From: Chloroflexota bacterium
GTDB lineage: Bacteria > Chloroflexota > Dormibacteria > Dormibacterales > Dormibacteraceae
Assembly: GCA_005879985.1 (NCBI GenBank)
Contig: VBIA01000166.1
Location: 1 to 32,191, forward strand
Length of the DNA: 32,191 nt
Direction of reading: 5' to 3'
Below the pieces are notes generated by a model. That model was given only the letters and a program-made list of their open reading frames with translations. It was not told the origin of the DNA and searched no databases. The position numbers were made by a program, and so were the translations under genes. Shown here piece after piece: positions 1-1,635 of this stretch (positions are counted from its first letter, which is position 1; every line of letters begins with the position of its first letter).

Positions 1-1
1 C

Positions 2-94
2 TCGACGCTGGAGCAGGTCTTCGACCCATGGGCGGGCCTGGAGAACACCGACCTGGCCTTCGAGCGACTCTCCCTCGGAGTGAAGACCGCTTGA
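2..94 (+). CDS. purB: C-terminal fragment, probably adenylosuccinate lyase (PurB)
   Basis: Open frame from the window edge, STLEQVFDPWAGLENTDLAFERLSLGVKTA*, resembles a PurB C-terminus and lies directly upstream of purC; only 30 residues visible. Confidence 0.5.
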   Translation, partial: STLEQVFDPWAGLENTDLAFERLSLGVKTA

Positions 95-281
95 TCCGGC
101 GATCCCGGCCGGAGGCCCTCGCCGGATCTTCGGGGCCCATGCGACCCATCTTCGGGTTCAGCGGCTCCGCTGCTCGCTCTCGCAGTTCTCCAATGCGTTC
201 GCTCCGCTGCTCGCCGCTTCACCCGAATCTGAGCCCCCTGGATCCCCGAATCTCTCGTCGAGGTCTCCTGCCGTGATCGCC
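92..281 (+). repeat. Copy 1 of ~182-190 bp intergenic element (purB/purC gap)
   Basis: Aligns without gaps to 1191..1380 at an offset of exactly 1099 bp, about 22 mismatches in 190 by hand count; runs from the purB stop TGA to the purC start GTGATCGC. Confidence 0.93.
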
Positions 282-1193
282 GGTCCCGCGGTCAGCAACA
301 CGGAGCTGCCGCTGAAGCTTTTCGCGCGCGGCAAGGTGCGCGACACGTACGAGCTGCCCGACAACCAGCTGCTGATGGTTGCGACCGACCGGCTCTCGGC
401 GTTCGATCACGTGCTGCCCACCGGCATCCCCGACCGCGGCAAGGTGCTGACCCAGCTGTCGATCTTCTGGTTCTCGCAGACGCACACGTTCCAGGAGAAC
501 CACCTCGTGTCGGGCATGGTCCCCGACCTGCCCGCCGCCCTTCGCGACCACCGCGAAGAGCTCGCCGGCCGATTCATGATCGTGCGCAAGGCCAAGCGCA
601 TCGACTTCGAGTGCGTCGTCCGCGGCTACCTTGCCGGGAGCGCGTGGAAGGAGTACGAGAAGTCGCACACGCTGGCCGGCGAGGAGATGCCACCCGGCCT
701 GCGGCAGAGCGAGAAGCTGGCGTATCCGATCTTTTCGCCCGCGACCAAGGCCGAAACCGGCCACGACGAGAACATCACGTACGCGCAGCTGAAGAAGGAG
801 CTCGGCGACGACCTGGCGCAGAAGCTGCGCGACGCAAGCCTCGAGCTTTACAAGCACGCGTCGCAGCACGCGGAGAGGCGCGGCATCATACTGGCCGACA
901 CCAAGTTCGAGTTCGGCCAGATCGACGACGAGCTCATTCTCATCGACGAGGTCCTCACGCCCGACAGCTCGCGGTTCTGGGACGCGGTCACCTACGGCGT
1001 AGGCACGACCCCCGACTCGTACGACAAGCAGTTCGTGCGCGACTGGCTCACGCGCTCGGGCTGGGACAAGGAGTCCGATCCACCGGCCCTGCCGCCCGAG
1101 ATCGTCGCCCAGACCCGCGAGCGCTACCTCACCGCGTATCACCGCCTCGTGGGCAAGCCCCTCTTTCCGAAGAAGCCGAGGAACGAAAAATGA
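273..1193 (+). CDS. purC: Phosphoribosylaminoimidazole-succinocarboxamide synthase
   Basis: KLFARGKVRDTYELPDNQLLMVATDRLSAFDHVLPTGIPDRGKVLTQLS; ILADTKFEFG; LIDEVLTPDSSRFW - SAICAR synthetase motifs; GTG start. Confidence 0.97.
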   Translation: MIAGPAVSNTELPLKLFARGKVRDTYELPDNQLLMVATDRLSAFDHVLPTGIPDRGKVLTQLSIFWFSQTHTFQENHLVSGMVPDLPAALRDHREELAGRFMIVRKAKRIDFECVVRGYLAGSAWKEYEKSHTLAGEEMPPGLRQSEKLAYPIFSPATKAETGHDENITYAQLKKELGDDLAQKLRDASLELYKHASQHAERRGIILADTKFEFGQIDDELILIDEVLTPDSSRFWDAVTYGVGTTPDSYDKQFVRDWLTRSGWDKESDPPALPPEIVAQTRERYLTAYHRLVGKPLFPKKPRNEK

Positions 1194-1380
1194 TTTGGCG
1201 ATCCCGTCCCGAGCCCCTCGACGGAGCTTCGGCGCCCATGCGGCCCATCTTCGGGCTCAGCGGCTCCGCTGCTCGCTTACGCAGTTCTCCAATGCGCTCG
1301 CTCCGCTGCTCGCCGCTTCGTCCGAATCTGGGCCACCTGGATCGCCGAATCTCTCGCCGAGGTCTCGGGACGTGATCGCG
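1191..1380 (+). repeat. Copy 2 of ~182-190 bp intergenic element (purC/purS gap)
   Basis: Ungapped match to 92..281; runs from the purC stop TGA to the purS start GTGATCGC. Confidence 0.93.
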
Positions 1381-1635
1381 CGAATAGTCGTGGTGCCGAA
1401 ACCGGTCGTCAACGACCCGCAGGGGGTCACGGTCCGGCAGGGTCTCGCGTTGCTGGGCTTCGGTGAGGTCACCGAGGTCCGCGTCGGCAAGTACATCGAG
1501 GTCAGGCTGGACGCGACCTCCGAGCGCGCGGCGCGCGAGCGCGTCGACGCGATGTGCAGCCGGCTGCTCGCCAACCATGTGATCGAGGACTACCACTTCG
1601 AGCTCGAGCACGAGAGCAAGGGCGCGATGCGATGA
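1372..1635 (+). CDS. purS: Phosphoribosylformylglycinamidine synthase subunit PurS
   Basis: GTG start; [46 protein letters not shown], 87 aa, followed by purQ with ATGA overlap. Confidence 0.95.

Follow-up and report, generated by a model that had tools for sequence, protein, structure and literature searches.

In the 32,191-nt stretch of DNA analyzed here (the window), the gaps on both sides of purC are filled by nearly the same sequence, which raises the question of whether an intergenic region was duplicated locally or a dispersed element lies twice in one operon. The initial annotation had described two ungapped copies at a constant offset, each running from the stop of one gene to the start of the next, with no similar intergenic stretch elsewhere. 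A repeat search recovered the same pair (92-280 and 1191-1379; offset 1099; 88% identity over 189 ungapped nt, with ~22 mismatches) and found no third copy within the 32,191 nt. In a search of the genome, copy 2 matched copy 1 with an E value of 7.6e-65, beyond chance. Copy 1 begins with the stop codon of a purB-like frame (TGA, 92-94) and ends at the GTG of purC (273), while copy 2 spans from the TGA of purC (1191-1193) to the GTG of purS (1372), so that the placement claimed for both copies held. PurC and PurS were identified by Pfam (Table 1), and purB by synteny, the upstream gene of a relative being adenylosuccinate lyase. The window contig (C27) and the start of another source-genome contig (G000:C39) overlap across copy 1 (window 1-300) with two mismatches, so that the assembly breaks near the repeat. 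An apparent further copy at C39:19-207 was rejected, as it is the same locus at this contig overlap, with flanks matching purB and purC.

Table 1. Positions of the two repeat copies, their parts, and the flanking genes in the window
Feature	Position	Strand	Evidence
Copy 1, hairpin element between purB and purC	92..280	+	Repeat and fold; predicted pairing 93 to ~285
Copy 2, hairpin element between purC and purS	1191..1379	+	Repeat, fold, and G001 empty site; predicted pairing 1193 to ~1385
TGAT, left copy of presumed target duplication; contains purB stop codon	92..95	+	Relatives: single xTGATCGC
TGAT, right copy; with G273 gives the GTG start of purC	274..277	+	Sequence, relatives
TGAT, left, copy 2; purC stop codon	1191..1194	+	Sequence; G001 empty site aaaaATGATCGCGC
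TGAT, right, copy 2; with G1372 gives the GTG start of purS	1373..1376	+	Sequence, relatives
Conserved center of copy 1, GGATCTTCGG...CCGAATCTCTCGTCG, apical module included	124..260	+	Copy alignment, information content
Conserved center of copy 2	1223..1359	+	Copy alignment
GAGG, right arm of copy 1, possible ribosome-binding site for purC, stem-paired	260..263	+	Sequence, fold; function inferred
GAGG, right arm of copy 2, possible ribosome-binding site for purS	1359..1362	+	Sequence, fold; function inferred
purC (SAICAR synthetase), flanking gene	273..1193	+	PF01259, E 3e-72
purS, flanking gene	1372..1635	+	PF02700, E 1.3e-28

The initial annotation had proposed a dispersed family if copies occurred at other gene junctions, or a simple local duplication if only these two existed, and had also allowed that the repeat might be missing from independent assemblies. 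The first of these is what was found. A total of ~26 distinct copies, plus deletion derivatives, were recovered from the source genome, and a sequence search found copies in 32 of 61 relatives of the same bacterial family, including genomes assembled independently. Exact matches to the core among GTDB genomes numbered 55, all in records titled as Dormi(i)bacterota/Dormibacteraeota or "Chloroflexi" MAGs, and viral contigs, plasmids, and phages yielded no match to the element. Element length is ~170 to 230 bp across the family. Hairpins in two further bacterial families mainly have the apical module GGCTCCTGCGCTCCTCGCTCACGCA...TGCGCTCGCTSCGGTGCTCG in common, most with quite different outer stems. 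Local duplication of the intergenic region, or an assembly artifact, is consistent with copy 1 being closer to copy 2 than to the rest of the copies in the genome; however, the many junctions that carry copies refute local duplication as a full account, and the copies dispersed over genomes from independent assemblies, together with both filled and empty orthologous sites, leave the probability of either close to nil.

Comparison of orthologous purB-purC-purS junctions, which the initial annotation had recommended, revealed filled and empty sites among the relatives. In G001, a sister species in the same genus, the purC-purS junction that holds copy 2 in the window reads ATGATCGCGC / aggaacgaaaaATGATCGCGC, a 4-bp stop/start overlap; with the ortholog of copy 1 present and this site empty in G001, copy 2 came by insertion. 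The same junction was filled in the source genome (G000), G020, G034, G023, and G025 and empty in G001, G011, G033, and G027. Flank searches found empty orthologous sites for ~15 further source-genome copies, mostly in G001, along with three sites filled in both genomes, and eight start/stop sites in relatives likewise had empty orthologs. Scars in which the middle is gone and the feet are left were found at L235, L305, and L335. The orthologous empty sites prove insertion, and the element family is mobile: it is short, non-coding, present in many copies, and polymorphic in insertion. Judging from sequence, copy 2 may have descended from copy 1, since the two have a common end type and no other copy in the genome matches copy 1 as well as copy 2 does. 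Thus, the repeat and its junction placement in the initial annotation stood, while the hairpin, the mobility, and the stop-codon rule described below were not seen there.

Inserts unlike the family were also observed at these junctions. A different insert of ~120 nt, predicted to form a stable hairpin (-58.8 kcal/mol), lies at the purC stop/purS start of L229 (G031), and an insertion of ~45 nt lies at the purB-purC overlap upstream of purC in L218 (G029) and L220 (G002). At one further junction, two species carry two different hairpin inserts (L268/L270 in G009:C43 versus L026 in the source genome), which suggests independent insertion at a hot spot.

The sites of insertion are xTGA overlaps and (C)TAG stop codons, and in most cases a short stretch of the target is duplicated. 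Orthologs that lack the element have at these positions a 4-bp stop/start overlap (ATGA, GTGA, or TTGA), a CTAG shared by two convergent stop codons, or, at short gaps, the stop of the upstream gene. Gene frames were called with a simple codon model, for which the window genes served as the training set; of 101 genes facing an element, 92 stopped within 12 nt of a fixed position at its foot, compared to 20 of 198 in the two remaining frames. Either orientation is found, and some copies lie between convergent genes. The target duplication is clear at CTAG and TGAT sites but not visible at L187, at L140, or in the G025 purC-purS copy; the duplication rule is therefore not universal. Where CTAG or TGAT is duplicated, both genes are left intact, and the upstream stop and the downstream start survive insertion. 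That elements survive at stop codons and gene overlaps alone would largely be a filter imposed by the compact genome.

Each copy folds as a full-length, imperfect hairpin (copy 1, z of -5.2 on the plus strand and -9.3 on the minus strand; copy 2, z of -7.3 on the plus strand), so that the element is an intergenic, dispersed, imperfect palindrome of the ERIC-like kind. Across 40 consensus pairs in 80 copies, 95.6% of cells were paired, compared to 79.4% with partners shuffled and 34 to 50% when slid by 1 to 3 columns. Changes on both sides of a pair were found in 549 cells (170 when shuffled) and in 30 of the pairs, and one-sided changes were rare relative to these. In the outer stem, 983 of 1,119 cells were Watson-Crick pairs, versus 565 after right arms were exchanged between copies. 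Arm parts were replaced by a side hairpin in the mosaic copies L012, L013, L015, L017, L019, L020, L142, L144, and L156; the side hairpin (e.g., CTCTGGGGTCCCCGTGGCGCAGCCACGGGAGTGGCCCC), in one or both arms, makes the fold branch around the apical region.

Such strong covariation might be expected of a cis-acting structured RNA that is selected at operon junctions and controls translation or transcription between neighbors, and it is consistent with this explanation that stop and start codons lie within the foot together with GAGG and that related species also carry a copy at some of the junctions. However, close relatives lack the element at most junctions, it has no match in Rfam, and the occurrence of copies in either orientation, as well as between convergent genes, fits poorly with such a role. 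The mismatches also argue against it: selection at the RNA level would make G-U outnumber A-C, yet outer-arm mismatches comprised 38 G-T and 55 A-C (P = 0.10), with no G-U excess, although mixed transcription orientation could blur these counts. These similar counts weaken RNA selection alone as the cause of the covariation. Furthermore, at tandem stop/start junctions the transcribed strand is the less stable one. A structured RNA is accordingly an improbable general explanation, although individual copies may have been recruited by the host. In the pur operon copies, the stem contains the GTG start as well as a GAGG located 9 nt ahead of it, and the upstream stop lies at the left foot. In tandem operons, the element would thus supply the downstream gene with its start codon and a putative ribosome-binding site inside the hairpin foot. 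Because a ribosome stopping at the upstream TGA would open this foot, the anatomy of the junctions suggests that translation of purC and of purS may depend on the preceding gene.

One site, that of L132, L136, and L320, bears on how the arms remain complementary. Empty orthologs there are mostly ATGAGCACC or similar, while the filled sites read GTGAGCACG (L136), GTGATCACG (L320), and GTGATCGCG (L132). In L132, GAGCACC of the empty site has become GATCGCG, complementary to CGCGATC in the element's own left arm, so that the first codons of the neighboring gene were apparently rewritten to fit the arm. The left foot as a guide that must match the target before insertion was rejected, as the match in L132, L136, and L320 arose after insertion. 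Hairpin arms can be generated and preserved by template switching during replication (PMC8794818), a process that also gives rise to mutations at quasipalindromes in Escherichia coli (PMC7202029). The arms are probably kept complementary mainly by such DNA-level correction, through template switching within the quasi-palindrome, which could also overwrite the first codons of a neighboring gene. Orthologs that are 95 to 98% identical mainly show broken pairs and few compensated ones, which suggests that the arms are corrected slowly or, for the most part, during transposition. Conserved mismatches in the center persist despite whatever corrects the arms.

Conservation decreases from the inside outward. 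Information content, counted on copies found without the exact core pattern, was ~1.7 bits per column in the center, compared to 0.5 to 0.7 in the feet. Because the searches recovered copies through their resemblance to the core or to a whole copy, the conservation of the center is partly ascertained; the outer pairing is not affected. Over one shared center lie several unrelated end types (AGGCGCGGCCGGAA, GCAGGCTGCTGAAAAAG, CCCGGCCGGAG with a start codon, GGGAGCTGCGGCGGG, and others), and terminal inverted repeats are not conserved across the family. One young subfamily (L021-L029), which ends in GCAGGCTGCTGAAAAAG, is near-identical and burst-like. Short deletion derivatives of this subfamily lie at L065:1500-1559 (G000:C75), with ~60 bp left, and at G000:C123:11235-11322.

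The burst-like subfamily is what a conventional MITE would leave, that is, a deletion derivative of an IS whose transposase acts on fixed terminal inverted repeats and duplicates a TA or YTAG target (IS630-, IS701-, or IS5-like). The IS701 family targets YTAG. The element is short and non-coding, with inverted ends and short duplications at CTAG/TAG. A conventional MITE would, however, not be expected to have ends that differ wholly between subfamilies over a common center, and no matching transposase was found. The search covered the domains DDE_5 (IS701-type), DDE_3 (IS630-type), and Y1_Tnp in MAG bins, which often lack IS elements; none of the three was present in the 88%-complete source genome, DDE_5 and DDE_3 were absent from most element-bearing relatives and few in the family, and Y1_Tnp occurred in no element-bearing relative. 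Among the 61 genomes, Y1_Tnp was found only in G012, a member of the same bacterial family, with eight matches, and no element match was found there. In 42 genomes, no paired ends of the GCAGGCTGCTGAAAAAG subfamily enclosed a gene at a distance of 1 to 2 kb. Considering these results, a conventional MITE is unlikely, though far from implausible.

The reading that we prefer, at a probability of roughly 0.7, is that these elements are non-autonomous mobile DNA hairpins of the soil bacteria Candidatus Dormibacterota that are moved in trans, insert at stop codons and gene overlaps, and combine a conserved center with complementary arms that are corrected at the DNA level. The bottom strand, with tandem G-A mismatches of the GAGCGAG type, gave the more stable fold in 80 of 80 copies under both RNA and DNA parameters. 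This stability and the free ends suggest that an enzyme acting in trans would recognize the folded center, most likely of the bottom strand with its tandem G-A mismatches and possibly as single-stranded DNA, rather than fixed termini; the enzyme and the strand are conjecture, since no mobilizing gene was found. A broader proposal, in which a type of mobilizing enzyme not yet described reads the conserved folded center and not the ends, while arms drift or are rewritten with the target in several families of one phylum, is speculative and on balance doubtful. Integron attC sites also form hairpins of the bottom strand, in which unpaired features are conserved while the complementary sequence varies; the Dormibacterota element is like them in these respects but differs in target and length.

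Other palindromic repeats offer parallels. According to Table 1 of PMC2229807, ERIC/IRU of enterobacteria and Correia/NEMIS of Neisseria are short dispersed repeats with inverted ends, long stem-loops, short target duplication, and TA at the termini. Dispersed imperfect palindromes with short target duplication, as described in PMC2229807 and PMC10969869, are a likeness of behavior, and no sequence kinship is claimed. In contrast to ERIC and Correia, the Dormibacterota element has interchangeable termini with the center alone in common, inserts at stop codons and overlaps, and belongs to a different phylum. YPAL/RU-2 of Yersinia, described in the same source as a palindromic repeat of ~168 bp whose termini lack the TA motif (PMC2229807), is also palindromic, but no stop/start rule was found in its description, and its host group is unrelated. 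REPs are 20 to 40 bp long with GTAG or CGTC tags, and the E. coli RAYT binds the REP palindrome in single-stranded form and cuts it (PMC3733652). Both features tested for a REP/RAYT system (IS200/IS605-type Y1) were absent; the element is ~190 bp, with no constant GTAG/CGTC tag at its feet and no Y1_Tnp in the source genome.

A description of this repeat family was not found in the open-access papers searched, and the elements are best read as a new palindromic mobile-repeat family, MITE/ERIC-like in behavior. The family is thereby defined in a largely uncultured group, with about two dozen pairs of filled and empty sites for study, and it shows mobile DNA entering operons of overlapping genes without breaking them, through duplication of the overlap. 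Two questions become testable here, since close orthologs, empty sites in sister species, and scars are all to hand: by what means palindromic repeats of bacteria are moved when they have no matching transposase, and whether hairpin arms are kept complementary by template switching or by selection. Separately from the family, a TPP riboswitch (64.8 bits) was found at L178:5665-5772, near a copy in another MAG.
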